NCBI GenBank assembly: GCA_937125455.1
Contig: CAKZLK010000026.1
Coordinates: 1-37,706, forward strand
DNA length: 37,706 nucleotides
Source: an uncultured Aequorivita sp.
GTDB taxonomy: Bacteria; Bacteroidota; Bacteroidia; Flavobacteriales; Flavobacteriaceae
Direction of reading: 5' to 3'
Position numbers and translations under genes: made by a program. The notes beneath the pieces were generated by a model, which was not told the origin of the DNA, did no database searches, and saw only the letters and a program-made list of their open reading frames with translations. Shown here one piece after another: positions 4,507 to 33,964 of the stretch. Positions within the stretch are counted from its first letter, which is position 1. Every line of letters begins with the position of its first letter.

Positions 4507-5502
4507 ATGATTACTGTAATTCAAATTGGACTAGGGCCTTTGGGTCAGCAAATAGGTAAATATATAGACGATAAAGAAGAGGTGAAAACTATTGCTGCTG
4601 TTGATATTAATAACGATTTAAGGAATCAGGATTTTGGAGAGCTTATTAATGGAGAATCTTCTGGTGTATTGATTCAAAACACTATTGAAGAAGCTTTGCA
4701 AAACCTTCCGGAAAAACCTGCTGCTGCTATATTAACTACCGTGTCAAGCATTCAAAAATTAGAATCGCAAATAGAGAATATAGCTAAACATGGTATACCC
4801 ATTGTTTCAACATGTGAAGAGCTATCACACCCATGGGAAGAAAATCCAAAAGCAAGTAAAAGTATAGATGCAATATGCAAAAAATATAATGTAGCTTGTT
4901 TGGGTACTGGTGTTAACCCCGGGTTTTTGATGGACTACCTTCCATCAGTATTGAGTTCGGTATGTAAAGACGTAGAAAGTATTACCGTAGAGCGTTTTCA
5001 GGATGCCACACCACGAAGAATCCCTTTTCAGCAAAAAATCGGTGCCGGCCTTGATCTCGTGGCATTCAAAGCCAAAGAGCAGACCGGTACATTACGACAC
5101 GTTGGATTAAAAGAATCTGTTTATTTTTTGGCTAATAGTGTAGGCTTTAAATTAGACAATGTAACAGAAGATCTTCAACCTGTAATTGCTGAAAACAACA
5201 TAAGTGTTCCATCAATGGATATCAAAGAGGGAGATGCCCGTGGTGTGGAGCAGATTTCCCACGGATATATCAATGGGGATTGTAAAATTAAAATGCATTT
5301 TAAAGCAGCTATCGGAGAGCCCAGATCTTTTGACAGGGTTACTATAAAAGGAGAACCTTCATTTGTTTCGGAAATAGGTACAGGTGTCAATGGAGATATT
5401 GCTACCTGTGCCATTACCATTAACAGTGTTAAAAGTATTTTAAAAGCATCTCCGGGGTTACATACTATGGCAACGATACCGGTTCCGGGTTATATTAATT
5501 AG
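4507..5502 (+). CDS. 2,4-Diaminopentanoate dehydrogenase-like amine dehydrogenase (DapB-type fold)
   Basis: This 331-residue cytosolic protein has an N-terminal Rossmann domain starting VIQIGLGPLGQQI (nucleotide-binding glycine motif), followed by a DapB-like C-terminal domain. Length and features such as CLGTGVNPGFLMDYLP and the conserved ERFQDATPRRIPFQQKIG resemble 2,4-diaminopentanoate dehydrogenase (Ord, from ornithine fermentation) and the related native amine dehydrogenases. Those enzymes interconvert an amine plus NAD(P)+ and a ketone plus ammonia. It is the first gene of the operon and lies 21 bases before a D-amino acid transaminase. No other ornithine-fermentation gene is nearby, so the true substrate is unknown. 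Inference: oxidative deamination of a D-amino acid or diamino acid, or regeneration of an amino donor. Confidence 0.7.
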   Translation: MITVIQIGLGPLGQQIGKYIDDKEEVKTIAAVDINNDLRNQDFGELINGESSGVLIQNTIEEALQNLPEKPAAAILTTVSSIQKLESQIENIAKHGIPIVSTCEELSHPWEENPKASKSIDAICKKYNVACLGTGVNPGFLMDYLPSVLSSVCKDVESITVERFQDATPRRIPFQQKIGAGLDLVAFKAKEQTGTLRHVGLKESVYFLANSVGFKLDNVTEDLQPVIAENNISVPSMDIKEGDARGVEQISHGYINGDCKIKMHFKAAIGEPRSFDRVTIKGEPSFVSEIGTGVNGDIATCAITINSVKSILKASPGLHTMATIPVPGYIN

Positions 5503-5523
5503 TACTAATTTTAATAATTAAAA

Positions 5524-6390
5524 ATGAGGAATTATCCCAAAAAAGTATATCTGAATGATGAGATTTTAGATTATAAAAATGCTAAAATATCTGTATTTGA
5601 TAGGGGCTTTTTATTTGGTGATGGAATTTATGAAGTGATGACTCAGAAAAACGGTTCTTTCTTTTATGGAAAAGAACATTTGAACCGTTTGTCTGAATGT
5701 CTTGATAAAATTCATATAGATTTTGATACAACGACACTTCCTGGTAAAATAGATGATCTGCTCAAAGTTTCTGATATAGATAAAGGTGAGTGCCTTATTT
5801 ATATTCAGGTAACTAGAGGTGTGGCTCCAAGAAAACATGATTTTCCTGATCATGCAGTACCTACATTAATGATGTATGCGCTGCCCAAAAAATTTCCTGG
5901 TATTAATAAGAATGCAATTAAAATAATTACAATGCCCGATTATCGATGGCATCGTTGCGATATTAAAATGATCTCTTTATTAGGAAATGTTATGGCAAAT
6001 GATCATGCTATTAAACAGGAAGCTCATGAAGCTGTTTTTTTTCGAGATGGTTTTATAACCGAAGGTTCGCACAGCAATATCTTTTTTGTCAAAAAAGGGG
6101 TTGTGTATACGCATCCTGCCGATGAATATATTCTTGATGGAATTACACGACAAATCGTGATTCAATTATGCAAAGATTGTGGTATAGAAGTCAAAGAAGA
6201 AGCCATTTCAAAAGAAGATATTATAAAAATGGACGAAGCCTTTTTAACTGGAACGACTACACAAATTGGAGCGATAACACAAATAGATGACTACCTGTTT
6301 TATCAAGATAGAAATGTAGGCTCGGTTACCAAAAAACTCCAAGAGGCATTTTTGATTCTAAAAAACAGTTACAAAAAAGTTATTACTTAA
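5524..6390 (+). CDS. dat: D-amino acid aminotransferase (class IV, fold-type IV PLP enzyme)
   Basis: The enzyme moves the amino group between D-amino acids and 2-keto acids (typically D-Ala and 2-oxoglutarate giving pyruvate and D-Glu). Length (288 residues) fits the Bacillus D-AAT family. PLP lysine K148 lies in WHRCDIKMISLLGN, the phosphate-side Glu E180 in FITEGSHSN, and Y36 in FLFGDGIYEV. APRKH (R103 and H105) matches the Arg/His pair that grips the alpha-carboxylate of the D-substrate in D-AAT, which argues against a branched-chain or aminodeoxychorismate enzyme. There is no signal peptide. It is probably co-transcribed with the dehydrogenase upstream and the D-aminoacylase 11 bases downstream, and would funnel released D-amino acids into central metabolism. 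Confidence 0.85.
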   Translation: MRNYPKKVYLNDEILDYKNAKISVFDRGFLFGDGIYEVMTQKNGSFFYGKEHLNRLSECLDKIHIDFDTTTLPGKIDDLLKVSDIDKGECLIYIQVTRGVAPRKHDFPDHAVPTLMMYALPKKFPGINKNAIKIITMPDYRWHRCDIKMISLLGNVMANDHAIKQEAHEAVFFRDGFITEGSHSNIFFVKKGVVYTHPADEYILDGITRQIVIQLCKDCGIEVKEEAISKEDIIKMDEAFLTGTTTQIGAITQIDDYLFYQDRNVGSVTKKLQEAFLILKNSYKKVIT

Positions 6391-6401
6391 AACAAAATAC
6401 C

Positions 6402-7979
6402 ATGAATACTAAAGCGATTCTCCCTTTTTTTCTCATAATCTTAACATTATGGAGTTGTAACAACACACAAAGCTATGACACCATTATCCTAAACGGAAAT
6501 GTGTACGATGGCTCAGGAAAAGAATCGGTAAAAACCGATATCGGAATCAAAGATGGACTGATTGTGAAAATCGGTGATTTGTCAACCGCCGAAGCTTCCC
6601 GAAAGGTAGATGCCAAAGGCATGGCTGTTGCCCCCGGATTTATTGATATGCATGCGCACTTAGACCCCATTCTTAAACTTTCAAATTGCGAAAGCCATGT
6701 AAGACAAGGTGTAACAACAGCTCTCGGCGGCCCTGACGGTGGCGGCCCCTGGCCTTTTGGCCAATATCTGGACACGCTCGATCAGATAGGGGTAGGGATG
6801 AACGTGGCCTACCTGGTAGGACACAACAGGGTAAGAAAAAATGTAATGAAGCTGGAAAACAGGGCTCCCACCGAAAGCGAACTCAGCCAAATGAAAGCAC
6901 AGGTTCGGCAGGCCATGCAGGAAGGAGCCTATGGAATTTCGACCGGGCTTAAATATTTACCCGGAGCCTTTTCTAAAGTAGATGAGGTTATAGAGCTTTC
7001 AAAAGTAGCATCAATCGAAGGTGGTATCTACACCTCGCATTTGCGTGAAGAAGGGCTGGGCTTATTTGATGCGGTTCAGGAAGCCATCGTTATTTCTAAA
7101 GAAGCAGAAATCCCGGTGATACTCACCCACCATAAAGTCATGGGCAAACCTATGTGGGGTAAAAGTACCAGAACACTGGCTATGGTAGATTCTGCCAGGG
7201 CAGCAGACCTTGACATCAAAATGGATCAATACCCATACAATGCAAGTTATACCGGTATATCTGTACTAATTCCCAGTTGGGCAAGAGCCGGAGGAAATGA
7301 GGCTTTTAAGCAGAGAGTGTCAGAGCCTGCGCTGCGTGATAGTATAAAATCAGGGATCATTTTTAATATTTTAAATGACCGCGGAGGCAGCGACTTAAAC
7401 AGAGTGCAATTTGCCAAAGTAAGATGGATGCCAGAATTGGAAGGGAAAACTTTAAAATACTGGTGTGAACAAAAAGGGCTAAAACCAACGGTGGAAAACG
7501 GTGCAGACTTAGTGATTGAAGCCCAGCTGAATGGTGGTGCATCTTGTGTTTTTCATGCTATGGATGAAGGTGATGTAGAACGCATTATGAAGCACCCTCA
7601 AACTATGATTGCCTCGGATGGAAGGTTGGTAAAACCCGGAATGGGACACCCACACCCACGGTGGTACGGTACTTTTCCAAGAGTTTTAGGGCATTATGTT
7701 CGTGAAAAAGGAACGATTTCATTATCGGAGGCTATCTATAAAATGACAAAACTGCCTGCAACTACGCTTGGACTAAAAGACAGAGGGCAGATTAAAGAGC
7801 AAATGAAAGCAGATATTGTAATCTTCGACCCTAAAACCGTTATTGACAAAGCAACTTTTGAAAAACCACACCAATATCCTGAAGGAATCTCTTATGTAAT
7901 AATTAATGGAAAACTTTCAATCGACAACGGTGTATTTCAAAACATAAAAGCAGGAAAAGTGTTAAGAAAAAACAAATAA
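6402..7979 (+). CDS. N-acyl-D-amino-acid deacylase (D-aminoacylase) lipoprotein
   Basis: This is an amidohydrolase-superfamily enzyme of 525 residues that removes acyl groups from N-acyl-D-amino acids. The N-terminus is a lipoprotein signal with a lipobox ending in LWSC (C19), so it should be anchored in the envelope. The metal site is recognisable: HAHLDP near residue 84, then SHLREE, THHKVMG and the Asp in IASDGRL. The HPHPRWYGTFPRVL segment is typical of the D-aminoacylase branch. A second family member lies in the opposite arm (25551-27029). It is in an operon between the D-transaminase and an S12 hydrolase (22-base gap). Substrate chirality is inferred from family and context; dihydroorotase-like or dipeptidase activity in the same superfamily cannot be excluded. 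Confidence 0.85.
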   Translation: MNTKAILPFFLIILTLWSCNNTQSYDTIILNGNVYDGSGKESVKTDIGIKDGLIVKIGDLSTAEASRKVDAKGMAVAPGFIDMHAHLDPILKLSNCESHVRQGVTTALGGPDGGGPWPFGQYLDTLDQIGVGMNVAYLVGHNRVRKNVMKLENRAPTESELSQMKAQVRQAMQEGAYGISTGLKYLPGAFSKVDEVIELSKVASIEGGIYTSHLREEGLGLFDAVQEAIVISKEAEIPVILTHHKVMGKPMWGKSTRTLAMVDSARAADLDIKMDQYPYNASYTGISVLIPSWARAGGNEAFKQRVSEPALRDSIKSGIIFNILNDRGGSDLNRVQFAKVRWMPELEGKTLKYWCEQKGLKPTVENGADLVIEAQLNGGASCVFHAMDEGDVERIMKHPQTMIASDGRLVKPGMGHPHPRWYGTFPRVLGHYVREKGTISLSEAIYKMTKLPATTLGLKDRGQIKEQMKADIVIFDPKTVIDKATFEKPHQYPEGISYVIINGKLSIDNGVFQNIKAGKVLRKNK

Positions 7980-8001
7980 TAAGGGATTAAAATTCAAGAA
8001 A

Positions 8002-9714
8002 ATGCAAACTATTTACGTAAATTCATCTTATAAAATACTTCAGAAAGTAGTTAAAAAAGCACTATTGACCTTTCTTTTATGTGTTTTTTTTCAAGCGAGC
8101 TATGCACAGTTAACAGCTACGGAATATCAAAAAATTGATGAAATTTTCAGCCAGTGGAATGTTCCTAATCACCCCGGAGGAGCCATAGGGGTGATGAAAG
8201 GCGGCAAGGTGATATTTTCAAAAGCTTATGGATTGGCAAGTTTAGAATATCTTATTCCTAATTCAACAGGAACACGCTTTAATGTAGCCTCCGTTTCTAA
8301 ACAATTCACAGCGATGGGCATTGTACGGCTTCACCTTCAGGGAAAACTTTCTGTTGATGATAACATTAAAAAATATATGCCCGAATTGCCCGAATTTGCA
8401 GAAAAGATTACCATCAGGCAAATGCTGCACCACACCAGCGGATTGAGAAGCCTGCATACCTTGTTTGCCCTGGCCGGATGGCGAGGTGATGACACCAGAA
8501 CCAATGAAGATTTATACCGAATTATGCAAGACCAGCGCAATCTGAACTTTGAACCGGGAAGTGAGTTTTTGTACTGCAATACCGGCTATATGTTTATGGC
8601 AAAAATTATTGAGGAAGTAACCGGAGAAGAGTTTACCAGCTGGATGAAAAAATCAGTCTTTGACCCTTTGGGAATGACGGATACTTATATAGAAGATAAG
8701 TACAACAGGGTGGTTCCCAACAATGCTACATCCTATTACACACAAAAAAACGAGTTCGACAGGGCTGTTGAATATTGGGGCTATGTAGGCTCCGGAAATA
8801 TGCACTCAACTACCGCCGATTTATTAACCTGGCTGGAAAATTTTTCTACTCCCAAATCCGGATGGGAAAAGGCTTTTAAGATGATGCTTACAATCGACCC
8901 ATTAAATAATGGAGCTTATAATGATTATGCTTTTGGTGTTCGGCTCGACTCCTTTAAAGGCGTTAAACGCGTGCAGCATGGTGGCTCCATTGGTGGCTAC
9001 CGGTCATCTATCGGCACCTACCCGGATGAAAAACTGAGTATAGCCATTATCACCAATTTTTCGACCGCATCGCCCGGCAGTAAAGCAAATAAAATTGCTG
9101 AAATACTGCTCACAGATAAACAAGGTGATACAAAAGCAACAACTACACCTAAGGGTATAAAACTTCCTACCAAAACACTCAGCAAATATATTGCTTCTTA
9201 TTGGGACGATGGAAGTAATGGTTTGCGTAAAATATATTTAAAAAATGATACACTAAGATATGTTCGTTCAGAGAATAATGAAACTCCGCTAATCCCTGTT
9301 AAAAAGAATGAGTTTCTATTATCCGGAAGTTCGGTAAAAGTCCGTTTTGAATCGGATAAAAAAGAAAAAACAATGACGGTAACTAATGGCAACTCCTCTA
9401 CTGTTTTCAAAGCATTTGAACCCGTATCTACCCCCTACTCAAAAGAACTATTACAATCCATTGCCGGTGAATATTTTAGCCCGGAGCTAAAAACCAGCTA
9501 TTATGTTTCGATAGACGATAACAACCTGATTGGGAATCATATCAGGCACGGAAATTTTGAAATAGAAATCATTAAAAAAGATGTGCTAAAAGGCAATAGT
9601 GCTTTTCAGTTCGTTAAATTGAAGCGAAATGAAAAAGGCAATGTAATTGGAGCTTTTGTCTCAAACAGCAGGGCCAAAAACGTATGGTTTGAAAAGCAAA
9701 ATTTAAACGAATGA
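8002..9714 (+). CDS. Exported S12 serine hydrolase (beta-lactamase/D-aminopeptidase fold)
   Basis: This 570-residue serine hydrolase of the penicillin-binding-protein/class C beta-lactamase fold has a signal peptide ending near ASYAQ (residues 21-36). The catalytic SxxK is S97-VS-K100, YCN is at 191-193, and the third motif is HGGSIGGYRS. An additional C-terminal beta-rich part (about residues 390-570) resembles the extra domains of D-aminopeptidases such as DAP and DapBII, which cleave N-terminal D-residues. It overlaps the next gene by 4 bases (ATGA at 9711-9714), so the two are probably translated together. It is a clear paralogue of the protein at 27049-28677. D-amino acid or D-peptide specificity comes from context only; esterase or beta-lactamase activity is possible. 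Confidence 0.83.
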   Translation: MQTIYVNSSYKILQKVVKKALLTFLLCVFFQASYAQLTATEYQKIDEIFSQWNVPNHPGGAIGVMKGGKVIFSKAYGLASLEYLIPNSTGTRFNVASVSKQFTAMGIVRLHLQGKLSVDDNIKKYMPELPEFAEKITIRQMLHHTSGLRSLHTLFALAGWRGDDTRTNEDLYRIMQDQRNLNFEPGSEFLYCNTGYMFMAKIIEEVTGEEFTSWMKKSVFDPLGMTDTYIEDKYNRVVPNNATSYYTQKNEFDRAVEYWGYVGSGNMHSTTADLLTWLENFSTPKSGWEKAFKMMLTIDPLNNGAYNDYAFGVRLDSFKGVKRVQHGGSIGGYRSSIGTYPDEKLSIAIITNFSTASPGSKANKIAEILLTDKQGDTKATTTPKGIKLPTKTLSKYIASYWDDGSNGLRKIYLKNDTLRYVRSENNETPLIPVKKNEFLLSGSSVKVRFESDKKEKTMTVTNGNSSTVFKAFEPVSTPYSKELLQSIAGEYFSPELKTSYYVSIDDNNLIGNHIRHGNFEIEIIKKDVLKGNSAFQFVKLKRNEKGNVIGAFVSNSRAKNVWFEKQNLNE

Positions 9715-10856
9715 AAAAGCATCTATATATTTTAATAGTATTAATTGGAGCTCTTTCAATTGCCCAAGCACAAAATCAGCGGCAAAGAGCCAGAGATTTG
9801 GGCATTGAACCCGGCATCCTCACCCCCGGAAAATACAATGCCATCACCGATGTGCAAGGCGTTTCGGTTGGACAAAAAACATTGATCGTTGGCGACTCCA
9901 TTCGTACCGGAGTAACTGTCATTTTACCGCATCAGGGGAATATCTTTCAGGAAAAAGTACCCGCAGCCGTATTTGTCGGCAACGGGTTTGGGAAAGCACT
10001 TGGGTTTACACAAATCGAGGAGCTTGGCAATATCGAAACACCCATTACCCTCACCAATACCCTTAATGCCTTTTTGGTGGCAAACGGTTTAGTTGATTAT
10101 ACCTTATCCATCCCCGAAAATAAAAAGATTCGATCTGTAAACCCCGTGGTTGGCGAAACCAATGATGGCTGGCTCAATGATATCAGAGGCCGCCATGTAA
10201 AAGGCCAACATGTTTTTGAAGCGATTCAAACAGCAAGCACCGGAAAAGTTGCCGAAGGCAATGTAGGCGCAGGCACCGGCACCAGAGCTTTAGGCTTTAA
10301 AGGAGGTATCGGTACTTCATCTCGTGTGTTGCCCAAAGAAAAGGGCGGTTATACCGTAGGTGTGCTTGTACAAACCAATTTTGGAGGCATTCTTACCATC
10401 AATGGTGCTCCGGTTGGCAAAGAACTCAACAATTATTATATGGCAAATGATGTTCCTTATGTGGTGGATGGCTCGTGTATGATTGTCATTGCCACAGATG
10501 CCCCCGTATCTGCTCGCAATTTAAAACGCCTGGCAAAACGTTCTTTTCTGGCTTTTGGAAAAGTAGGATCATTTTCATCCAATGGCAGTGGCGATTACAG
10601 TATTGCCTTTAGCACGCACCCCCAACTTCGCATTCCATACAGTGCAAAAGAAAGAGAGAAAGCTACGATAGAAGTGGCTAATGATTATATGTCGCCTTTG
10701 TTTTTGGCAACGCTGGAAGCTACTGAAGAAGCTATTTACAACTCACTGTTTATGGCAACCGATATAACAGGGCAAAAAGGAAGAACCATGAAAGCACTCC
10801 CTGTAAAAGAGACACTGAAAATAATGGATAAATACAATGCGCGTAAAAAACAATAA
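9711..10856 (+). CDS. Exported P1-family peptidase (DmpA/BapA-type aminopeptidase)
   Basis: This P1-family (DmpA) Ntn hydrolase of 381 residues is expected to cut itself into two chains in front of a nucleophilic serine; the likely site is G254-S255 in VVDGSCMIVIATDAP. Relatives act as L-aminopeptidase/D-amidase-esterase (DmpA of Ochrobactrum) or beta-peptidyl aminopeptidase (BapA). A signal peptide (MKKHLYILIVLIGALSIAQAQ) places it in the periplasm or outside. The family start motif NAITDVQGVSVGQ (about 43-55) and the GxGxGTR region near 187-192 are present. The ATG overlaps the stop of the previous gene by 4 bases. DmpA can release D-Ala from amides and esters, which fits the theme of the cluster; beta-peptides are an alternative substrate. 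Confidence 0.87.
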   Translation: MKKHLYILIVLIGALSIAQAQNQRQRARDLGIEPGILTPGKYNAITDVQGVSVGQKTLIVGDSIRTGVTVILPHQGNIFQEKVPAAVFVGNGFGKALGFTQIEELGNIETPITLTNTLNAFLVANGLVDYTLSIPENKKIRSVNPVVGETNDGWLNDIRGRHVKGQHVFEAIQTASTGKVAEGNVGAGTGTRALGFKGGIGTSSRVLPKEKGGYTVGVLVQTNFGGILTINGAPVGKELNNYYMANDVPYVVDGSCMIVIATDAPVSARNLKRLAKRSFLAFGKVGSFSSNGSGDYSIAFSTHPQLRIPYSAKEREKATIEVANDYMSPLFLATLEATEEAIYNSLFMATDITGQKGRTMKALPVKETLKIMDKYNARKKQ

Positions 10857-10860
10857 TAAG

Positions 10861-12723: not shown

Positions 12724-12772
12724 TTTTATTCTTTAAAGTAATTGAAAACTATTAACAAAATATAAGAAAATA

Positions 12773-13873: not shown

Positions 13874-13924
13874 AATTTTCACTTTAATTGAATTCAATAT
13901 CGAACTCGGGTTTTTATTATTGTA

Positions 13925-14022: not shown

Positions 14023-14025
14023 TGG

Positions 14026-15009: not shown

Positions 15010-15036
15010 GTTTTTTATTCTATCATTAATAATTAT

Positions 15037-16149: not shown

Positions 16150-16171
16150 GGCTTATATATCTTGATTATAT

Positions 16172-23440: not shown

Positions 23441-23449
23441 AGTGAATGG

Positions 23450-25531: not shown

Positions 25532-25550
25532 AATGTTGGTTCGTTAAATG

Positions 25551-27029
25551 TTAATTCTTTAACACCCTTCCAGAATAAATCATGGTTGGTGCCTTATTTT
25601 GAAATACTACCTTTCCTGACACAATTACTTTGTGTAATCCTTCAGCTTTAAGTGTGCTTTCTTTAAAAGTAGCCTTGTCTTTAAAAGATTCTATACCGAA
25701 CAATAAGAGGTCAGCATAATAGCCCTCTTTTATAATGCCAATACTGTCTATACCCATATTCTCAGCAGCTTGGGTAGTCATCTTATGAATTTTTGTCTCA
25801 AGGGATTCACCAGTATCCATATTTAGATATCGAGGGAAAGCACCCCAACCCCGTGGATGACCCGAAGGTGCACCATCTGAGCATAGATTGATATGTGGCC
25901 ACCTGCTGAGCGTCTTAATATCTTCCAAATCCATTGATTTAGCAATAATACTTTCTCCAGGGGTCTCCTGAGACATTTTTATTAAGGTTATAAATGTTGT
26001 AACAGCATCCTCTTTCCTGAGGTCTGCAATTTCTTTCAGGGTAAGCCCTTCATAAATTGGGTTAGCGTTGAATTTATTAACGATTACCCCTTCTGGCGTG
26101 GTGAGTTCTGAAAGAGCGAATGCTGCGCTTTCCCTGTTATCAAAGTCGCGTTTTGGAAAGAGCACCGTCATAGTGGACTGCCAGTATTGATACGGATAAA
26201 TATCGGCAGTAACATCAATACCATCGGATCTGGCGCTATCAAGAATAGTCAGAATTTTAGCTGCCTTTCCCCATAGTCCTTTACGAGCTAACTTGAAGTG
26301 AGAAATTTGCACGGGCATATTAGTTTCCTTGCCAACCCTTAAAATCTCATCAATGCTTTGCTCTAAATACATATCCTCACTTCGCATATGACTGATATAT
26401 CTGCCACCATATTGCGAAGCTACTTTGGCCATTTCAATCACCTCCTGTGTATTGGAGTAGATTCCCGGGTCGTATTCCAGCCCTGTAGAAAGCCCAAGGG
26501 CACCACTTTGCATATCGCGGGCAATTAATTTCTTCATTGCTTCTATTTCATCAATTGTAGCTTCCCGTTTAAAATCATTACCCATCACCTTTTGTCTCAC
26601 GGTATTGTGCCCAACATACGATGCTATATTTAAGGATAACGGGGATGTTTTTAATGAATCGAAATAGTTGCTTAAAGAGGGTCTGGAAAATCCATCCTGA
26701 CCTACAATTATGGTGGTTATACCTTGACTAATAGCCGCTTCTACTGTTCGAAGAGTGTCTCCATCATGATGGCTATGCGTATCAATAAAACCCGGACTTA
26801 ATATCATCCCGGTTCCATCTATAATTGAATCAGTATCGAATACTGTCAAATCACCAATATCAATTATCAAGCTGCCCTTAATTCTAAGAGAACCCACAAA
26901 ACGGTCGGCTCCTGTGCCATCAATAATTGTAGCATTTTGTATAAGCAGGTTCTTTTCTTCTGTTGGTTTACATTGATTTAACAAAACTAAAAGGATACTC
27001 AATGAAATGATATAATGGAACTTTCTCAT
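25551..27029 (-). CDS. Second D-aminoacylase-family amidohydrolase lipoprotein
   Basis: This amidohydrolase of 492 residues has a lipoprotein signal (lipobox LLNQC, C20, followed by KPTEEK). Metal-site motifs are DTHSHHDGDT, ISHMRSED, ISHFKLAR and CSDGAPSGHPRGWGAF; the last is the late Asp plus the D-aminoacylase signature. It is a paralogue of the plus-strand enzyme at 6402-7979 but diverged, with a different loop before the late Asp, so the two probably take different acyl or side-chain groups. It lies 19 bases behind an S12 hydrolase gene, mirroring the neighbour pair in the other arm. Confidence 0.85.
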   Translation of the reverse strand: MRKFHYIISLSILLVLLNQCKPTEEKNLLIQNATIIDGTGADRFVGSLRIKGSLIIDIGDLTVFDTDSIIDGTGMILSPGFIDTHSHHDGDTLRTVEAAISQGITTIIVGQDGFSRPSLSNYFDSLKTSPLSLNIASYVGHNTVRQKVMGNDFKREATIDEIEAMKKLIARDMQSGALGLSTGLEYDPGIYSNTQEVIEMAKVASQYGGRYISHMRSEDMYLEQSIDEILRVGKETNMPVQISHFKLARKGLWGKAAKILTILDSARSDGIDVTADIYPYQYWQSTMTVLFPKRDFDNRESAAFALSELTTPEGVIVNKFNANPIYEGLTLKEIADLRKEDAVTTFITLIKMSQETPGESIIAKSMDLEDIKTLSRWPHINLCSDGAPSGHPRGWGAFPRYLNMDTGESLETKIHKMTTQAAENMGIDSIGIIKEGYYADLLLFGIESFKDKATFKESTLKAEGLHKVIVSGKVVFQNKAPTMIYSGRVLKN

Positions 27030-27048
27030 ATTCTGCTCGCTTTAGTTT

Positions 27049-28677
27049 TTATTCTTTTTTGAACAGTAAGTTTTTAACCCGACCTGAGGTCAGTATAAAA
27101 CCTGTCGACTTGTTTTTTGTCCTGATAAACTCAAAAGTACCCATAGCATCATTCACAAAAATATTCTCCTTGCCAGAGACAAGTGGTGAAATTTTCTTAC
27201 CATTTATATATAGTAGTAACTCCTTTCCTTGCAGTTGAAGTAAATAAGAAACTTGTAGTTCTTCACTGTAATAACTTCCTGCAAATGTGTTGAGGTCTGA
27301 TGCTGTATATATAGGTAGTTCATAAGCAGTATATATCTGCGGGTCTCTTCCTGGAAACTGTATTGTCATCCTATCATCCCTAAAACTTACTTTAATTTTC
27401 GGATACTTTACTAAGCTAAACTGCCCGGATTCTATAGCTACTAGTCTATTGTTATCAAGGTAGAGGGTGTCATTTTTAATGCTGACTTTATTGCCCTTCA
27501 TCAAGGTGTCGTTCCAGTAACTACCTACATAATGAGCCAATTTTTCTGGTGTGGTGACATAGTCCTCTGAGGTTTTCTGTGGCTCTATTTTGTCAACAGA
27601 TGTTTTGGGTTTATCAAATAAGACATCTGCAATTTGGTTTGCGTGCTGACCCGCTTGACCATCACTTCTGTTTGTTAGAACAGCAATGGCAATATTTTCC
27701 TCTGGAAAACGCATCAATTCGGCCCTGTAACCAACAAAAGCACCACCGTGGCGCACAACAGGTTTGTCATTGTATTTGGTAATATTTAGGCCGAGCGCAT
27801 AATCAAGGGTATCGCCATTATTCAATATAGCCTTAGTTTGCATTTTTTGAGTGAATTCCTGGCTACCAACAGTATGTGTGCTAAAATTATCTACCCACTT
27901 ACCTAAATCTTCTATGGTTGTGAATACTCCGCCATCGCCAATCATTTCAAGCTGTGTCATACTGATTTCAAAGCCATCATCGGTAGGTGTGTAACCTGAA
28001 GCCCTGTTTGGCACAATCATGGAATTGTTATCATGAAAATGGGTGTTTTTCATTTGCAAAGGTTTGAAAATATTTTGCTCGGCAAATTCTGCTAGTGTAG
28101 TTCCCGATACTTTCAAAACGACCTGTCCCAATAGCCAATAACCACTATTGGAATATAGAAACTCATCGCCTGTGGCAAAATTGAGGTTCTTTTGTTTTAC
28201 CAAAAGGTTCATTACTTCCTCATCGGTATAGAAGTCATCATCATCAAACCCTGCCAGATAAACAAGTTGCAAATAATCTCTAATACCGCTGGTATGATTA
28301 AGTAAATGACGTAGGCTGATGTCTTTTGCATAATCAGGGAATTCAGGAAAAAACTTACTCAATGGGTTATCAAGGCTCAACTGACCTTGTTCTGCAAGTA
28401 ATATTATGCAGGCAGCTGTAAATTGCTTGGATGTTGAAGCAATTCTAAACACCGAATTTGTCGTATTGGCAATACCATAATCCATGTTTGCCATGCCATA
28501 TCCTTTGGCATATTCTAACTTCCCTCCACGGTAAATACCTATTGCTGCTCCAGGTTCAGTAGGTTTCCAGTCGCTAAACACATTATCAACTTTTTCAGCG
28601 TATTCTGGTATTCTTTGTTGCTCTGTACAACTTATCAAAATAATTGCAAGAAGGGCGTTAAATAAGTGTTTCATCAT
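27049..28677 (-). CDS. S12 serine hydrolase lipoprotein, paralogue of the one at 8002-9714
   Basis: This beta-lactamase-fold hydrolase of 542 residues has a lipobox LISC (C17). The catalytic SxxK is S81-TS-K84, the second motif is YSN in FLYSNSGYWL, and the third is RHGGAFVGYRA. The C-terminal beta-rich part ends in RVKNLLFKKE, like RAKNVWFEKQN in the plus-strand paralogue. Both have an acidic insertion after HTSG (LAGFDDDDFYTDEE here, LAGWRGDDTRTNED there), which suggests a shared active-site feature. MM at the start leaves 28677 or 28674 as the first codon. It lies 8 bases behind the DgcA-like gene. D-aminopeptidase-like function is inferred. Confidence 0.83.
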   Translation of the reverse strand: MMKHLFNALLAIILISCTEQQRIPEYAEKVDNVFSDWKPTEPGAAIGIYRGGKLEYAKGYGMANMDYGIANTTNSVFRIASTSKQFTAACIILLAEQGQLSLDNPLSKFFPEFPDYAKDISLRHLLNHTSGIRDYLQLVYLAGFDDDDFYTDEEVMNLLVKQKNLNFATGDEFLYSNSGYWLLGQVVLKVSGTTLAEFAEQNIFKPLQMKNTHFHDNNSMIVPNRASGYTPTDDGFEISMTQLEMIGDGGVFTTIEDLGKWVDNFSTHTVGSQEFTQKMQTKAILNNGDTLDYALGLNITKYNDKPVVRHGGAFVGYRAELMRFPEENIAIAVLTNRSDGQAGQHANQIADVLFDKPKTSVDKIEPQKTSEDYVTTPEKLAHYVGSYWNDTLMKGNKVSIKNDTLYLDNNRLVAIESGQFSLVKYPKIKVSFRDDRMTIQFPGRDPQIYTAYELPIYTASDLNTFAGSYYSEELQVSYLLQLQGKELLLYINGKKISPLVSGKENIFVNDAMGTFEFIRTKNKSTGFILTSGRVKNLLFKKE

Positions 28678-28685
28678 TATACTTT

Positions 28686-29750
28686 TTATGTAAGCTCAAA
28701 ACCGAACCCTGGTTTTTTATTGATACTTAGAATGCCATCTTTTAGTGAAAAACCTCCATTGACCAAGTCTTCTGCCAGATCAAAACTACCGTCCAAATCA
28801 AGGTATTTGGTATGAGGGCAGGCAAATGCCGCATGTATTGCAGCAGTGATGCTTACGATACTCTCGTCATTACAACCCCAAAACAGGTTAATATTAGCGG
28901 CTTTGGCGATGGTTGCAATTTCAAACGCTCCCATAAGCCCTCCACATTTCATCAATTTGATATTGTAGATACCAAAAGGTTGAGGAAGTGTAGCATATTG
29001 TATGGCACTGGTACCGTTTTTTAGGCTTTCGTCTGCGACCAGTATTTTCCTGATTTTTTCATCTACTCCAGTCAGTTCTTGTTCTTTCCCCACAGGAACA
29101 GGCTGCTCTATTACCTCTAAATTTGCTTTTTCTGTTGCTTGTACAAACTGCAGCAATTCTTTTTTCCCATATCCCTGATTGGCATCTACACGGATAATCA
29201 TATCATTATGTTGTTCGTGTAGTTTTAAGATTCGTTCAATATCCAATTCAACCGATTCTCCGGTTTTTACTTTAAGCACTTTAAAACCTAACTTTTTGTA
29301 TTCGGCAGCCTCTTTTAGCGTTTCCTCTACCCCCATAATACCAATAGTTACTGAGGTTGGTAACGATTTGATATGCTGTCCGTAGATTTCCACTACGGGA
29401 ATGCCTAAATATTTAGCGAAAGTATCATGCAAGGCAATGTCCCAAATGGCCTGTGTACCCGGTTTATCGGGGAAAGTAGCATGAACATCTTGAATCATTT
29501 TTCTGAAATGTCGAATGTCTTTACCAATAAAGGATTGAAAGTAATCTGATTGACAATTCTGAAGTGTTTGTGCAGGTGTTTCATTAACCACTTCTTTTGC
29601 TGGATTAGCAGCTCCTATACCGGTAATTCCATTTTCGAGAGTAATAAAAAGAAAAGCACTTTCTACATCAGAAACGGTTTTATAAGCAATGCTATAAGGC
29701 TTGGTAAGTGCTAAATTTTTTGAAAAGGCTTTAATTTCTTTAATCTTCAT
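28686..29750 (-). CDS. dgcA: Enolase-superfamily epimerase: DgcA-like N-acetyl-D-Glu racemase or L-Ala-D/L-Glu epimerase
   Basis: This cytosolic enolase-superfamily enzyme of 354 residues belongs to the muconate lactonizing/dipeptide epimerase group. Acid-base lysines are K162 in LKVKTG and K268 in IKLMKCGG. Magnesium ligands are D189 (RVDANQGY), E215 (EQPV) and D240 (ADES). A DLD motif at 318-320 (KYLDLDGS) is the pair that, in dipeptide epimerases, holds the substrate's free amino group. Its start codon overlaps the end of the DgcN-like gene by 11 bases, so they are translationally coupled. In the published D-glutamate pathway DgcN acetylates D-Glu and DgcA racemizes N-acetyl-D-Glu to the L-form. 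The DLD motif leaves a real alternative: epimerization of murein L-Ala-D-Glu. Confidence 0.75.
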   Translation of the reverse strand: MKIKEIKAFSKNLALTKPYSIAYKTVSDVESAFLFITLENGITGIGAANPAKEVVNETPAQTLQNCQSDYFQSFIGKDIRHFRKMIQDVHATFPDKPGTQAIWDIALHDTFAKYLGIPVVEIYGQHIKSLPTSVTIGIMGVEETLKEAAEYKKLGFKVLKVKTGESVELDIERILKLHEQHNDMIIRVDANQGYGKKELLQFVQATEKANLEVIEQPVPVGKEQELTGVDEKIRKILVADESLKNGTSAIQYATLPQPFGIYNIKLMKCGGLMGAFEIATIAKAANINLFWGCNDESIVSITAAIHAAFACPHTKYLDLDGSFDLAEDLVNGGFSLKDGILSINKKPGFGFELT

Positions 29751-30795
29751 GAACTGTTATTTTTAGCGCGGTAATAAATTTTTGAACACCTTCTTGTATA
29801 GGAATAACAACCGGTATATTTAATGAGGCTTCTAATTCGGATTGTATCGTTTTGGCTTCTTCAGAAGTAAGCCCTTCTGTATTTAAAGCCAATCCAATGA
29901 CTTCGCTATTAAACTTTTTGATGATTTCTATTTCAGATTCAATAGAAGGTATTTCCCCCCATTCGGGTTCCTGATCAAAATATTTTCTTCCGGGAGCACA
30001 CACCAAAATCACTTTTTTTGCATTTCCTGAAATAAGCATCTCTAAACCACAAGGACCGCTAGGGTTTCTAAGACTAGACTGACCTTCCAAAAGGATCATA
30101 TCCGGTTTTTCTTTTTGCCAACAAGAAACAATCGCATGTTCCAATTCACCTGAAACAAAATCATTAAGTGTAGAATCGAAGATAAAACCATACTTACTTC
30201 CTTGCATCCAACCGGTTTGTCCGGTGTAAATCATCTCTGCTTTTATATTTTCTTCCTTACAAGCTTCCAGCATAAGTCTGGTTGTGGTACGTTTGCCCAT
30301 GGCGCAGTCCATTCCTAAAACAGCAACAATAGGAACATCAATATTGAAAATTTCACCAGTCCAAAAATGCAGCTCTTTGATAGATTTTGGCTTACGGATA
30401 TCTATTAACTCTACGCCATATTCTTCAGCCAGTTTTACAATATCTTGTTGTTCGCACAATAAATGATGTAACCCATTTATAATATTGATTTTATAGGTAA
30501 TGGCTTTACGAATAGTTTTTAATAAGATCTCAGATAGAACTCCACCTTTGGTAGCTACTCCTACGATAAGACAATCGATATTATTTAATTGTTTTGTAGC
30601 TTCATCTATAGAACCAATAACTGGAATATTCCTCTTTTTACCGTCCAGAATTTCTCCTGCATCCGAACCTGCATGATTGTGATCTACAACGGCTAATAAC
30701 TTAAAACGATTTGACCCTCTAATCAATCCATGGGTTGTTTTTGCAAAATTGGTATGTAAATCTCCTCCTGTTATTACAATCGCTGTTTTTTTCAT
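29740..30795 (-). CDS. dgcN: DUF1611 protein, DgcN-like D-glutamate N-acetyltransferase
   Basis: This DUF1611-family protein of 351 residues has two parts. An N-terminal Rossmann-like domain (about 1-140) is followed by a P-loop-like C-terminal domain with GMDCAMGKRT at 161-170. A late LLEGQSSLRNPSGP segment is typical of the family. DgcN of this family was shown to transfer acetyl from acetyl-CoA to D-glutamate, the first step of a D-Glu catabolic route in marine bacteria and haloarchaea. It is cytosolic, with no signal peptide. It lies 5 bases behind the M55 D-aminopeptidase gene and overlaps the DgcA-like gene by 11 bases. The pairing is the strongest reason for the name; N-acetylation of another D-amino acid is possible. 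Confidence 0.78.
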   Translation of the reverse strand: MKKTAIVITGGDLHTNFAKTTHGLIRGSNRFKLLAVVDHNHAGSDAGEILDGKKRNIPVIGSIDEATKQLNNIDCLIVGVATKGGVLSEILLKTIRKAITYKINIINGLHHLLCEQQDIVKLAEEYGVELIDIRKPKSIKELHFWTGEIFNIDVPIVAVLGMDCAMGKRTTTRLMLEACKEENIKAEMIYTGQTGWMQGSKYGFIFDSTLNDFVSGELEHAIVSCWQKEKPDMILLEGQSSLRNPSGPCGLEMLISGNAKKVILVCAPGRKYFDQEPEWGEIPSIESEIEIIKKFNSEVIGLALNTEGLTSEEAKTIQSELEASLNIPVVIPIQEGVQKFITALKITVHED

Positions 30796-30800
30796 GCTAA

Positions 30801-31700
30801 TTAGGGTTTTAAAGCAATATTATATCCAGTTACAAATCGCAGGAATGTAGATATTTCAATAATATCTTTCCCAACGAAACGAATGGTATGCGAATCAATT
30901 CGTTTTGCTCCTGGGTAATGTTGTAAAAGTTCTACAGGACGATAGTTTTTCAGGCTAAGGTCAAGCGTTAACGGCCCTTTTAGTTTGTAAGGTTTAAACT
31001 CTTTAATTCTTTTGATGGCTGCTTTTGTTTTGTTGCCGATTACTTCATAGGCAGCATTCGGAGTAAGGGTTTTTGCCGAATGAAAGCTATTTGCCCACTT
31101 TACTACGGCACCTTCTGTATCTCCCAGCAGGTTTTGTGTTTCTTTCACAGCAATATCGTCTCCGGTAATTAGGATGATCGGAACATTGAAATGCCCAGCA
31201 ATTAGTGCATTAATACCTGCCTCCGGCATTACAATATTGTTGATTTTAACAGAGGTAATATTGGCACTCGACATGGTGTGTGCTCTAACTCCTTCTTTAC
31301 TATTAGTACTGGCGTGATAGCCCAAAAATATAGCTCCATCAAAAGAATCGTCAATACCTTCCATCATCCCCAACATACGTGGCCAAGATCTAACAATCAT
31401 CACATCATCAGGGAGTTTCTCAATAAGAATATTCTGCCCGTTTCCATGCGAATCACTAACCAAAATCTCATCTGCTCCTGCTTCACGAGCTGCTTTTATA
31501 CAAGCATTTACTTCGGCAGTCATGAACTTGCGGAAGCGCTCGTATTCAAACCCTCCGGGACCCAATTGTTCGCCTGTTACTGCTCCGACCACACCTTCCA
31601 TATCGGCAGAAATGTAGATTTTTAATTTTTTGTTCTGAGCTTGCACCATAGTAGTTGTTGTTAATAAGATGATAAAAAATAGTTTTTGAATGGTTTTCAT
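30801..31700 (-). CDS. Exported M55-family D-aminopeptidase (DppA-like)
   Basis: This is a zinc D-aminopeptidase of the M55 family, whose prototype DppA of Bacillus removes N-terminal D-residues such as D-Ala and Gly from short peptides. Metal ligands are D33 and E35 in ISADMEGV, then ISVSDSHGNG-type Asp/His (VSDSHGNGQN) and GYHAST. TGDDIAV follows at about 180. Bacillus DppA (about 274 residues) is cytosolic, whereas this 299-residue protein carries a signal peptide (MKTIQKLFFIILLTTTTMVQAQ). D-residues would therefore be released in the periplasm. It is 5 bases upstream of the DgcN-like gene and 23 bases behind the Ntn acylase gene. Confidence 0.87.
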   Translation of the reverse strand: MKTIQKLFFIILLTTTTMVQAQNKKLKIYISADMEGVVGAVTGEQLGPGGFEYERFRKFMTAEVNACIKAAREAGADEILVSDSHGNGQNILIEKLPDDVMIVRSWPRMLGMMEGIDDSFDGAIFLGYHASTNSKEGVRAHTMSSANITSVKINNIVMPEAGINALIAGHFNVPIILITGDDIAVKETQNLLGDTEGAVVKWANSFHSAKTLTPNAAYEVIGNKTKAAIKRIKEFKPYKLKGPLTLDLSLKNYRPVELLQHYPGAKRIDSHTIRFVGKDIIEISTFLRFVTGYNIALKP

Positions 31701-31723
31701 AATGTTTTAATTTATTGTGTTTT

Positions 31724-33964
31724 TTATCTCTGTTGAATTGTGAGGAGTGCTTCTATAGAAGTACTAATTATTTTTTTTCCCGGGTGATATGTACTTTTGG
31801 CTCTCTTTTCTACATCTTCCCGATAGTAGGCAACATCTTTAAATTGTATATCTATATAAGGTTGTACCTGATCATCAAAATGGGGCGAATCGGGGTCGCC
31901 ACTTTGACCACCTGCCAGCATACTTTTGGCTTTTAGTTTATCTCCAAATTCTACTACAGCTACAAAACTGTTACCTGATGTACCGTATATACGTTTTGTG
32001 CCGTTGTATGACCTTGCCCCGAAAGAGGCTAATGCTCCCCATCTGCCTGATGCCAATCCTACCGGTGTACTTGGTTTATCATCATTAAAAGGCTGTCTAA
32101 TATCTCCGTTAAGTCGTTGATATCTGTTAATTTCACCCCAGGGCGTATTCCAATTGCCGAAATCTTCTGTTAATTTGGCTATAGTTTTTTGGAAAATTGC
32201 AAGGCGTTCTTCCTCCGGTGATTCGGAACCGAAGTAGTTTATACGTTCCATATAGCTTAGTTTTTTAGGAGATTTCCCTTCTCGCGAATACATAATGCCA
32301 TAATAGTGGGCTAATGACATGGCTACAGATTCTTTGGATACGGCAAAATCCCAGTTTCGCAAGACTTCGATTGGCACTTTTAATGATTTTTCAGGATTTG
32401 GGGATTGGTCATATGCCGCTACTAATCCTGGAATGAGTACTTCAAAAGCAGGTAAATAAGGGTCGTATGCCATTTCAATCAATTTGTCGAGGTTTAGTTT
32501 ATCTGCTTTTTTCAGTAATCGTATAGCATGTACACCACGAAAGTTCTCACGATTTCTCGACATGTACCGAGGATAGTCTTCAACCTTTGGGCTATATTCA
32601 TCGGCACTTGTAAAAGGGGTTGAGTTACAGTTTTGTATCCAACCATTAGGAGGGTTGATTACAGTGATTGCTTCATCTACTGTGTGCAACCCTTTCCAGT
32701 CGGTGGCTGGATTACTGCCATCTACAGGCTTTGTATAATCAAATTTCACGTCTCTCATAGGAATAAAATTACCATGATAGTAAGCTATATTTCCTTGTGC
32801 ATCGGCATAAACGGTATTGTTGGACGAGTTGGTACGTATGTTCATCATTTCTCTGAATGCCTTATGCCCGTTTAGTTTTGTTCTGGTGAAAGACTGGGTT
32901 AGCGCCTTTACAGGGTCCCACATCATAGCTGTTGCCACCCATTTATCGTCAATTTTTTGTGTAATTGGTCCGTGATGGGTACGATACATGGTGAAGTCAC
33001 GCTTTTTAATTTCTTCATTTTCTTTGTATTTAAGTGCAACTTCTAACGTTTCTACTGGTCGTAATTCATCACCATATTTATATTTTAGTCCATCCTCATT
33101 TTTTACAACAGTTTCAACAAAATCGTCTATAACATCTGTATAAGTTGAAGTATGCATCCAGCCTGTTTCTTCGTTAAATCCCTGATAAACAAAAAATTGC
33201 CCCCAAGTTACAGCACCATAAGCATTTAACCCTTCTTCACTAACTACATGTACTTCTCCTCGAAAGAAAAAGGATGTGTGTGGATTGATAAGCAACATTG
33301 TATTACCCGATTCGGTTAATTTTCCTGAGATAGCAAACCCGTTGGAACCTCTTGGTTCGTTGTCAGCGAGACGTATTAACCCATCGTTAACTTCATTTAA
33401 TGAAAGCGATGGTTGTTCCTTTTCGTAAAAAGTTTTTATTGCTTTTGTAGATACGCGCTCAATATCTCCTCCTATTGATCCTTCACTAAAATACATGGGC
33501 ATCCATGGTTCAAAACGAGTTAACAATCGAGGTTTTACCTCAGGATGTGTATGCAGATAATAATTAATGCCATCAGCAAAGGCATCGCATAACTCTTTAA
33601 GCCAGTCAGGACTTTTATCATAATTGGCTTTTGCTTCTTCTTCTGTCATAAATAACTTTGCCCGTAAATCGCTATATAAAGCTTCCTCTCCTTCAACTTC
33701 TGCCAATCGCCCGGTTGCCCAGATATAGTTTTGCTCTACTCTGTTAAAATCATCTTCGCATTGTGCATATAGCAAGCCGAAAACAGCATCGGCATCCGTT
33801 TTTCCATATATGTGTGGTACGCCAAAATCATCTCTGAAGATCTCTGTATTAGCAGCACGTAGCTCCCAGCGTTGTTGTTCTGTTTGTGGCTGTTTAGCAC
33901 AAGAAATGATAATAAGTGTTAGTAATGATAGGTAAGTATATTTTGCAAGTGTTCGAAGTTTCAT
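31724..33964 (-). CDS. Penicillin acylase-family (S45) Ntn hydrolase lipoprotein
   Basis: This N-terminal-nucleophile acylase precursor of 746 residues should mature by self-cleavage before S207 in EPRGSNGFAISG, releasing a pro-segment between the alpha and beta chains. A lipoprotein signal (lipobox IISC, C22) anchors it. Beta-chain motifs typical of the family follow (INPHTSFF, YRTHHGPI, and TNSSNNTVYADAQGNIAYYHGN with the oxyanion-side Asn). Relatives cleave acyl groups from penicillins, acyl-homoserine lactones or N-acyl amino acids and peptides. It is the first gene of the long minus-strand operon, directly behind the proposed operator. Deacylation of N-acyl-D-amino acids or lipopeptides is the inferred role; quorum-signal cleavage is an alternative. 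Confidence 0.85.
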   Translation of the reverse strand: MKLRTLAKYTYLSLLTLIIISCAKQPQTEQQRWELRAANTEIFRDDFGVPHIYGKTDADAVFGLLYAQCEDDFNRVEQNYIWATGRLAEVEGEEALYSDLRAKLFMTEEEAKANYDKSPDWLKELCDAFADGINYYLHTHPEVKPRLLTRFEPWMPMYFSEGSIGGDIERVSTKAIKTFYEKEQPSLSLNEVNDGLIRLADNEPRGSNGFAISGKLTESGNTMLLINPHTSFFFRGEVHVVSEEGLNAYGAVTWGQFFVYQGFNEETGWMHTSTYTDVIDDFVETVVKNEDGLKYKYGDELRPVETLEVALKYKENEEIKKRDFTMYRTHHGPITQKIDDKWVATAMMWDPVKALTQSFTRTKLNGHKAFREMMNIRTNSSNNTVYADAQGNIAYYHGNFIPMRDVKFDYTKPVDGSNPATDWKGLHTVDEAITVINPPNGWIQNCNSTPFTSADEYSPKVEDYPRYMSRNRENFRGVHAIRLLKKADKLNLDKLIEMAYDPYLPAFEVLIPGLVAAYDQSPNPEKSLKVPIEVLRNWDFAVSKESVAMSLAHYYGIMYSREGKSPKKLSYMERINYFGSESPEEERLAIFQKTIAKLTEDFGNWNTPWGEINRYQRLNGDIRQPFNDDKPSTPVGLASGRWGALASFGARSYNGTKRIYGTSGNSFVAVVEFGDKLKAKSMLAGGQSGDPDSPHFDDQVQPYIDIQFKDVAYYREDVEKRAKSTYHPGKKIISTSIEALLTIQQR

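Follow-up and report, generated by a model that had tools for sequence, protein, structure and literature searches.

The DNA analysed here (the window) is a complete contig of 37,706 nucleotides, C26 of the 3.73-Mb, 63-contig genome G000 of an uncultured Aequorivita sp. (CAKZLK010000026.1). Between positions 4507 and 33964 it carries, within a probable mobile element, a cargo of 21 densely packed open reading frames (ORFs). That this cargo is a mobile catabolic island for feeding on D-residue-containing or N-acylated peptides is in our judgement an evenly balanced proposition. The observations behind it are the gene content, the active-site motifs, the recurrence of a gene module, the ends of the element and near-identical copies in other assemblies; the D-specificity of the enzymes we infer from sequence.

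Gene content of the island

The ORF listing places six cargo genes (g04-g09) on the plus strand and fifteen (g10-g24) on the minus strand. The two arms converge at 12.7 kb, and the intergenic spacing within each arm ranges from -20 to +128 bp. All 21 ORFs matched their stated Pfam families above the Pfam cut-offs, the S45 acylase included, which bears out the families and the two convergent arms named in a first-pass annotation of this DNA. Its 'about nineteen enzymes' described a compact set that is real, but its own list totals 21. Likewise, its frame of 4507-33964 does hold the ORF cluster, but the unit reaches left to a MocR-type regulator gene at 1276-2766 and is framed by mobility genes. 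Among the best 25 NCBIfam models for each of the 21 proteins, cut-offs were passed only for alr (TIGR00492, g13) and CocE/NonD (TIGR00976, g17); the name 2,4-diaminopentanoate dehydrogenase denotes a resemblance below the NCBIfam cut-off.

Five cargo proteins are S12 hydrolases, assigned by family match and motifs: g07 on the plus strand (8002-9714, exported) and, on the minus strand, g12 (15037-16149, probable lipoprotein), g14 (17433-19037, exported, with DUF3471), the divergent g15 (19157-20230, exported) and g20 (27049-28677, probable lipoprotein). SxxK and YxN are present in all five, and a C-terminal HxG in four, none being seen in g15. The whole genome contains 12 S12 matches, 5 of which lie inside the 37.7-kb contig (~1% of the genome). 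Under uniform, independent gene placement, which is an idealised null, the binomial probability of at least five is ~8e-8.

Further exported hydrolases on the plus strand are the S58 peptidase g08 (9711-10856; family match, solved relatives) and the M1 peptidase g09 (10837-12723; family match, HEIAH). Those on the minus strand comprise the S9-family hydrolase g10 (12773-13897; family match, GWSHGG), the M20 peptidase/deacylase family member g16 (20238-21545; family match), the S15 CocE/NonD hydrolase g17 (21593-23440; 280.5 against a cut-off of 66.3), the S9 peptidase g18 (23450-25531; family match, motif) and the S45 acylase family member g24 (31724-33964; family match, probable lipoprotein). 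The active-site motifs HExxH...E, GxSxG and GxSxxG were found in M1, in both S9 proteins and in S15, respectively.

Export signals were recognised, by eye and with a crude hydrophobicity and lipobox script, in 16 of the 21 proteins; g04, g05, g11, g21 and g22 had none. This agrees with the proposed division into envelope and cytosolic enzymes (16 exported-looking, 5 cytosolic). The lipobox flags of the script fell on g07, g09, g12, g14, g17, g19, g20 and g24. By eye, g06, g12, g19, g20 and g24 were read as lipoproteins and the remaining flagged proteins as carrying ordinary signal peptides, and the N-terminus of g13 is Tat-like (twin-arginine translocation). A foreign origin is not indicated by GC content, which is 0.388 in the cargo and 0.374 in a 14.5-kb contig of the same genome; this argument was rejected.

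Closest solved relatives

For six key proteins (g05, g06, g11, g19, g21 and g23) the nearest structures are named for D-amino acids, N-acyl-D-amino acids or D/L-dipeptides. The D-aminoacylase-like amidohydrolases g06 (6402-7979, plus strand; a lipoprotein by eye) and g19 (25551-27029, minus strand; a probable lipoprotein, by family match and solved relatives) are closest to the D-aminoacylase 1M7J/1RJP, which we take to be that of A. faecalis. Apart from GNCG, the metal segments are retained, as are the HHK/HFK, YPY and SDG...HPR segments; these aligned segments presumably hold metal and substrate residues. The cytosolic class IV transaminase-like g05 (5524-6390, plus strand) is closest to the D-amino acid aminotransferase 1DAA, keeps PRxH and scores 267.6 bits with TIGR01121, just under the cut-off of 277.45. 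It is therefore likely to work like a D-amino acid transaminase (DAAT).

DppA is a D-aminopeptidase, and its structure 1HI9 is the closest to the exported M55 (DppA-like) D-aminopeptidase family member g23 (30801-31700, minus strand; 212 against a cut-off of 430). The closest to g11 (14026-15009, minus strand), a cytosolic pyridoxal 5'-phosphate (PLP) enzyme of the D-cysteine desulfhydrase family, is the D-cysteine desulfhydrase 7YSK (282.8 against a cut-off of 289.4). The S58 peptidase g08 is nearest to 2DRH and 5TZB, named D-aminopeptidase, and then to beta-peptidyl aminopeptidase. For g04 (4507-5502, plus strand), a cytosolic DAP_DH_C or amine-dehydrogenase-like oxidoreductase (family match; 229 against a cut-off of 400), the closest structures are 7XDU/6G1M, named dihydrodipicolinate reductases, and amine dehydrogenases.

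The enolase-superfamily, dipeptide-epimerase-like g21 (28686-29750, minus strand) aligned over its full length with the solved 'dipeptide epimerase' 3RIT/3RO6 at 316 bits, followed by 3JVA (160) and 1JPM (150). Its DLDG at 318 is kept and aligns with that of 3RIT. We assume that the DxD motif of dipeptide epimerases binds the dipeptide ammonium and that 3RIT is a Methylococcus enzyme active on cationic dipeptides; a literature search for a Methylococcus dipeptide epimerase found no paper. Against the NCBIfam equivalog for L-Ala-D/L-Glu epimerase g21 reached 191 bits (cut-off 500) and against that for DgcA (NF042940) 130 bits (cut-off 400). The DUF1611 P-loop protein g22 (29740-30795, minus strand; family match, solved relatives) reached 137 bits against that for DgcN (NF041892; cut-off 480), and its nearest solved relative, with 181 bits, is the conserved hypothetical protein 2G0T (7XRJ 89 bits). 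Since both the DgcN and the DgcA cut-offs were missed, g21 and g22 were not filed under that pathway, and the earlier description of a DgcN/DgcA-like pair stands as a resemblance below cut-off; g21 is nearest to a dipeptide epimerase.

A recurring S12, D-aminoacylase, DUF1611 and epimerase module

The genes g19-g22 form what we call module B. A g22 scan of 11.3 million contigs yielded 125 relatives, of which the best 80 loci were kept; without two near-identical copies 78 remained, which are non-independent samples and include loci cut by contig ends. A g21-like gene directly followed the g22-like gene in 77 of the 78. In 65 loci a D-aminoacylase-like frame of the same strand lay no more than 4 kb away, and in 4 more at 4.6-4.8 kb; an S12-like frame was present within 6 kb in 23. 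S12 and D-aminoacylase were fused in one ORF of at least 750 amino acids in 19 loci, a natural fusion that is seen at 7439-9982 of locus L030 and in 18 further loci. A relative of an amino acid permease followed g21 in 46 loci, and 28 of the other 32 had room for it. Pfam matches bear out the fusion at two loci and the permease at a single locus. The window's own order (DUF1611, epimerase, S12, D-aminoacylase) was found again in L007, L009, L015 and L017.

Many source names of the module loci are plain 'Bacteroidetes bacterium'; by our own judgement the precise ones are largely of Chitinophagia, Cytophagia and Saprospiria type. Of 299 genomes from the window's family, 53 contain a g22 match at 1e-20, and a g21 relative is also present in four g22-anchored loci (G136, G160, G129 and G108). 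The best other relative in the family reaches 46% identity, whereas the module relatives outside it are 58-64% identical to g22. The g22 part therefore probably came into the family from elsewhere. A core of D-aminoacylase-like, DUF1611 and dipeptide-epimerase-like genes, as identified by their family resemblance, thus recurs in Bacteroidota. The term DUF1611 was absent from the literature search results examined, and the recurrent association with S12, D-aminoacylase, epimerase and permease genes places this DUF1611 branch in a pathway context that can be tested.

Ends of the element and near-identical copies

The cargo probably sits in an integrative or mobilisable element of ~35.5 kb (983-36464). 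Its left end lies at 979-1000, where homology to genome G300 begins at 979 and the core GTCGGGGTGGCAGGATTA occupies 983-1000. The right end, GGTTCGTCGGGGT, lies at 36452-36464 and includes GTCGGGGT at 36457-36464, after which the interior of a ParB-like gene follows. On the plus strand of the window GTCGGGGT occurs only at 983 and 36457, i.e. at both ends. To the left of 979, G000 and G300 have different flanking sequences, and both carry AGTCGGGGTGGCAGGATTA at the joint. In L001, a locus of the Polaribacter genome G299, the right junction reads GTCGGGGTGGCAGGATTA and is followed by chromosomal-type genes, so that one common core is found with three different flanks. Inside the right end are a BfmA/BtgA mobilisation protein gene (g25, 34282-34815, plus strand; 92.7 against a cut-off of 24) and a tyrosine integrase gene (g26, 34990-36240, minus strand; family match, with SAM_5 and Arm_5 domains). 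Among the integrase-covering matches in other genomes (66-74% identical), at least 17 stop at one point, window 36462-36467. An integrase, a mobilisation gene, repeated ends and different insertion sites were all found, as expected of an integrative or mobilisable element.

In G300 (behind locus L002) window 979-19921 is present at 99.93% identity and 19743-37706 at 99.78%. L001 contains window 28823-31719 and 33963-36467, 5.4 kb in all, at 99.6-99.8%, and its contig stops inside g21. At about 9075-9095 of L001 this copy is without a counterpart of the S45 gene g24, the missing part corresponding almost exactly end to end to window 31719-33963. The genomic background is far more divergent. One 14-kb contig of G000 aligned at 84% identity over 12.7 kb with each of two same-genus genomes (G027 and G254). 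The same contig gave only scattered pieces, some of which may be paralogues, in G300 (65-76%; 65-71% if at least 500 bp) and in G299 (66-81%; 68-74% if at least 500 bp). In G027 and G254 neither a g06 match at 1e-40 nor a g22 match at 1e-20 was found. The near identity of the element between genomes that have otherwise diverged argues for recent transfer, unless the binning is wrong. By the same comparison it suggests that a putative D-peptide diet can be handed around between otherwise quite different genomes.

A second tyrosine recombinase, 34% identical to g26, adjoins the left end of the element in G300 (L128 from 19177), where there is perhaps a stacked element. A plasmid location was considered and rejected, window 979-25900 being without a match in the plasmid collection.

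The exported racemase-like protein g13

The first-pass annotation counted a racemase among the island enzymes. The gene concerned, g13 (16172-17401, minus strand), encodes a Tat-type exported Alr-like protein that passes the alanine racemase model TIGR00492 with 238 bits (cut-off 168). Mapped on the residue numbering of the solved T. tengcongensis alanine racemase (PMC4517790; papers cited by PMC number here and below are used in excerpt), K77 and Y303 are its two catalytic bases. H322 stands in place of the inner-layer Tyr, position 205 replaces the PLP-stacking His and SASH replaces the CMDQ loop. The name racemase thus holds as far as the model and the catalytic bases go, but the pocket differs from that of classical alanine racemase and the protein is exported. 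Because both bases are kept while pocket residues are changed, g13 may be a racemase with a different substrate range.

At least 2274 relatives of g13 were found at E<=1e-60 among 7997 scored candidates. In the best 120 of these, His 322, Ser-Ala 350-351, His 353 and Tyr 303 are present in 120/120; at position 205 there are 81 Gly and 15 Ala, His being absent among the four commonest residues. A loosely Tat-like pattern within the first 25 residues was seen in 109 of the 120. K77, R176, H238, R257, Y303, H322 and S350-H353 are invariant in all 33 rows chosen from these 120. By score, alanine racemases (156 bits) are closer to g13 than is 4DYJ, a broad-specificity racemase (92 bits). The predicted structure of g13 is confident (mean pLDDT, the predicted local distance difference test score, 88.5). 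Among 191 genomes of the window's family a g13 match at E<=1e-70 occurred in the own genome only. An exported Alr serving amino acid catabolism is known from P. putida (PMC6034422). Several relatives of g13 are labelled alanine racemase by their source records, and this large Tat-type subfamily may do something else.

Two earlier readings of g13 were dropped. Loss of the catalytic Tyr was rejected, as Y303 is the catalytic Tyr and is kept, the His replacing the inner-layer Tyr instead. A metal site like that of D-threonine aldolase (PMC4401734) had been based on a wrong motif.

Regulator and flanking genes

Divergent from the plus arm, and outside the frame first drawn around the island, lies g02 (1276-2766, minus strand), which encodes a MocR-type regulator with GntR and aminotransferase domains (PdxR model, 365 against 320 bits). 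In G229 and G297, genes with 63-64% identity to g02 are neighbours of DAAT and D-aminoacylase relatives. MocR proteins contain a domain resembling PLP enzymes, and one member of the family, DdlR, regulates D-Ala-D-Ala ligase (PMC6677901, Table 2). Here g02 would presumably act as regulator of the island. An IS3-family transposase ORF, g03 (2834-3553, minus strand; family match, frames), could uncouple the regulation of the plus arm.

To the right of the element, g27 (36493-37665, plus strand; family match, relatives) represents the 3' portion of a ParB-like gene that belongs to a widespread element. Its reading frame is continuous across the insertion site in five relatives, and the gene is 78-94% identical over ~1.25 kb in at least 36 places, one of them in the own genome. 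This second copy (G000:C60:7441-8681) is 80% identical, the window copy spanning 36457-37706. At the contig start, g01 (window 16-552) encodes a nucleotide cyclase domain resembling Pycsar cyclases. It was the only clear match when eight proteins were searched for defence content with PADLOC (Pycsar cyclase, E 1.7e-12); it lies outside the element, and defence was rejected as its content.

Related neighbourhoods in other genomes

Within the 299 family genomes, relatives of g06 (66-78% identical) were found in seven other genomes and relatives of g08 (67-80%) in seven others. In G292 relatives of seven cargo genes (50-85%) lie within 14 kb, together with a second D-aminoacylase and a PLP-dependent enzyme. 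Eight cargo relatives (24-67%) occupy 20 kb in G094, and relatives of MocR, DAAT and g06 occur together in G229 and G297. A g05 match at 1e-40 is present in 24 of the 299 genomes, the own included; in the 20 g05 neighbourhoods fetched, g02 or g06 was found in none, and g08 was adjacent in G250, G266 and G007. Loci anchored on g24 had partners in G292, in G119 (two D-aminoacylases and g12), in G135 (g08), in G204 (a MocR relative) and in G138 (a weak g17). The Polaribacter genome G299 has a DAAT/D-aminoacylase pair of its own, 59 and 72% identical.

Proposed function and alternatives

In the function that we propose for the island, exported S12, S58, M55, S45, S15, S9, M1 and M20 enzymes would trim peptides in the envelope, yielding N-acyl-D-amino acids, short D/L-dipeptides and free D-amino acids. 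The lipoproteins g06 and g19 would strip N-acyl groups, and the exported g13 may alter chirality ahead of uptake, which would proceed through host permeases. In the cytosol g21, working together with g22, would convert L-D dipeptides to L-L forms cleavable by ordinary peptidases, and the transaminase g05, the lyase g11 and the dehydrogenase g04 would convert D-amino acids to keto acids. PLP or an amino acid adduct would be the signal at which the MocR protein g02 turns on the set.

More tentatively, at somewhat less than even confidence, we suggest that Bacteroidota possess a dedicated D-peptide utilisation system, comparable in logic to a polysaccharide utilisation locus, which is here carried on an element moving between genera now. 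With the same reserve, this as yet undescribed system might combine an envelope S12 enzyme and D-aminoacylase, often fused, with a permease and a cytosolic DUF1611 and dipeptide-epimerase pair that salvages L-D dipeptides. The island, in an equally tentative extension, might then join the module with further D-peptide enzymes, with a MocR sensor and with an uncharacterised type of exported Alr-like enzyme. No account of such a locus was recognised in the literature searched by titles and abstract starts, subscription papers being mostly outside its coverage. D-amino acids have been counted among the recalcitrant components of marine dissolved organic matter (PMC10845958, PMC12363236), and a transferable gene set for their use would show how this pool re-opens.

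Several results weigh against a mobile island for feeding on D-residue-containing or N-acylated peptides. The majority of the cargo proteins come from families rich in L-specific or non-peptide members, and NCBIfam cut-offs were missed for DgcN, DgcA, D-amino-acid transaminase, D-Cys desulfhydrase and DppA. The theme of D-amino acids, D-peptides and N-acyl amino acids, which was proposed at first sight of the DNA, gains from the solved relatives and the recurring module, but most curated names stay under cut-off. In both g06 and g19 the Cys of GNCG, which we take to be the bridging Cys of D-aminoacylase, is replaced by Asp (GPDG and GQDG). The same replacement was seen in 38/38 motif-matched frames of the fetched D-aminoacylase-like loci, repeats of one locus included. 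No transporter family was matched among the window ORFs scanned against family models, as had been noted at the outset; the window copy is without the module permease, and the own-genome permeases are 26-29% identical to it. The IS3 ORF g03 lies between the MocR gene and the plus arm.

The neighbourhoods point in the same direction. Four of the eight g06-anchored loci are poor, with g06 alone in G200, G052 and G272 and one weak neighbour in G178. Among 22 g05 neighbourhoods overall, 17 are without a relevant partner, 2 have g02 and g06 (G229, G297) and 3 have g08. Nine of 14 g24-anchored loci in other genomes are without any other cargo relative, and g08 is alone in 3/3 g08-anchored loci (G160, G080, G220). 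Conservation of the complete set was not observed across the genomes examined, although sub-modules recur. As the g05-, g06-, g08- and g24-anchored loci are mostly without a fixed partner set, the island is, to judge from these gene neighbourhoods, a mosaic of recurring modules.

With regard to mobility, only 5.4 kb of the element was seen in G299, and window 1-20000, when searched against that genome, matched only in pieces of 66-71% identity and over short stretches. The rest of the element is thus absent at high identity from the G299 assembly over the range searched, or unassembled. Window 1-978 was unmatched in G300, G299 and G254 and matched in G027 only at 63% over 404 bp and in short pieces. 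A relaxase had no family match in the family scans of the window proteins. The sequence flanking the element on the left is not the missing 5' portion of the ParB-like gene, which implies that the insertion history is not simple.

An explanation by general secreted peptide and amide scavenging, in which the clustered families serve L-peptides, N-acyl-L-amino acids or amides and the D-labels derive from family names, is fairly unlikely. It is in keeping with known biology, in which M1, M20, S9, S15, S45 and most S12 enzymes are not D-specific as such, with the NCBIfam cut-offs, most of which were missed, and with the g05 relatives, which usually stand without island partners. It leaves unexplained why dipeptide-epimerase-, M55, DAAT-, D-aminoacylase- and D-Cys-desulfhydrase-like proteins share one locus, and why S12 and D-aminoacylase are fused in 19 of the 78 loci.

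The apparent recent transfer could also be an artefact of binning or assembly, one organism's contig having been placed into several assemblies, which we hold to be improbable. In L001, whose contig measures 80.8 kb, the integrase end is joined to chromosomal-type genes over ~6 kb, and the one core common to three different flanks likewise speaks for real insertions. On the other hand, G299 and G300 are metagenome-assembled genomes, G000 has a contamination of 2.85% and the element fills nearly the entire contig in G000 (37.7 kb) and in G300 (40.1 kb). That most of the element was not found beyond 5.4 kb in G299 and that window 1-978 is not anchored in the genus raises the probability of this explanation and lowers that of a mobile island.

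Use of muropeptides, in which the island would digest peptidoglycan stem peptides (L-Ala-D-Glu-DAP-D-Ala, DAP being diaminopimelic acid) from other bacteria or from the host itself, seems rather improbable. S12, M55, dipeptide-epimerase-like and Alr-like proteins would suit parts of a stem peptide. However, no muramidase, amidase, LD-carboxypeptidase or NagZ-type match was obtained in the family scans of the window, the S45, S15 and N-acyl enzymes would be superfluous, and 3RIT (316 bits) is a closer relative of g21 than is 1JPM, an L-Ala-D/L-Glu epimerase (150 bits).

That the island detoxifies or exploits antibiotics with D-residues, or compounds like beta-lactams, is very unlikely, and nothing was found that speaks directly for antibiotic resistance, a role that the first-pass annotation had considered. 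The S12, S45 and S15 families include members acting on beta-lactams, but the class C beta-lactamase model gave 74-110 bits for g07, g12, g14 and g20 (cut-off 415) and was not among the matches listed for g15. The PvdQ model gave 82 against 950 bits, no efflux family was matched in the window scans and the cytosolic enzyme set points to nutrition.

Finally, use of oxidised chitin (GlcNAc1A) as in Pseudoalteromonas, where the D-aminoacylase-like OngB deacetylates an N-acetyl-D-amino-acid-like sugar acid and the ong cluster encodes a hexosaminidase, a sugar kinase, RidA and a MurR/RpiR regulator (PMC9537276), is scarcely credible here, since the window scans matched none of the latter four and the island is rich in peptidases, even though PpOngB structures are among the relatives of g06 and g19.

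Comparison with known systems

The element resembles mobilisable and integrative elements of Bacteroidota in its tyrosine integrase with SAM_5 and Arm_5 and in its BfmA domain; it differs in its 21-gene catabolic cargo and in having no relaxase match. Like the periplasmic or broad-spectrum racemases P. putida Alr and BsrV, g13 is an exported Alr-family protein with both catalytic bases, but it belongs to a separate subfamily with a His for the inner-layer Tyr and without the PLP-stacking His. The amidohydrolases g06 and g19 are like D-aminoacylase, N-acyl-D-Glu deacylase (1M7J/1RJP, 3GIP) and OngB (9KB1) along the barrel, with HxH, both later His and Lys/Tyr kept. They differ by the Asp for the GNCG Cys, by their exported lipoprotein form and by their setting in a peptidase island. 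The likeness of g21 to dipeptide epimerases (3RIT/3RO6, 3JVA, 1JPM) extends over the whole length and includes DLDG, whereas the cut-off of the L-Ala-D/L-Glu epimerase equivalog was missed. With the DgcN/DgcA D-glutamate pathway the island shares adjoining DUF1611 and enolase-superfamily genes; however, g22 is closer to 2G0T than to 7XRJ and g21 closer to dipeptide epimerases, both being far under the curated cut-offs.

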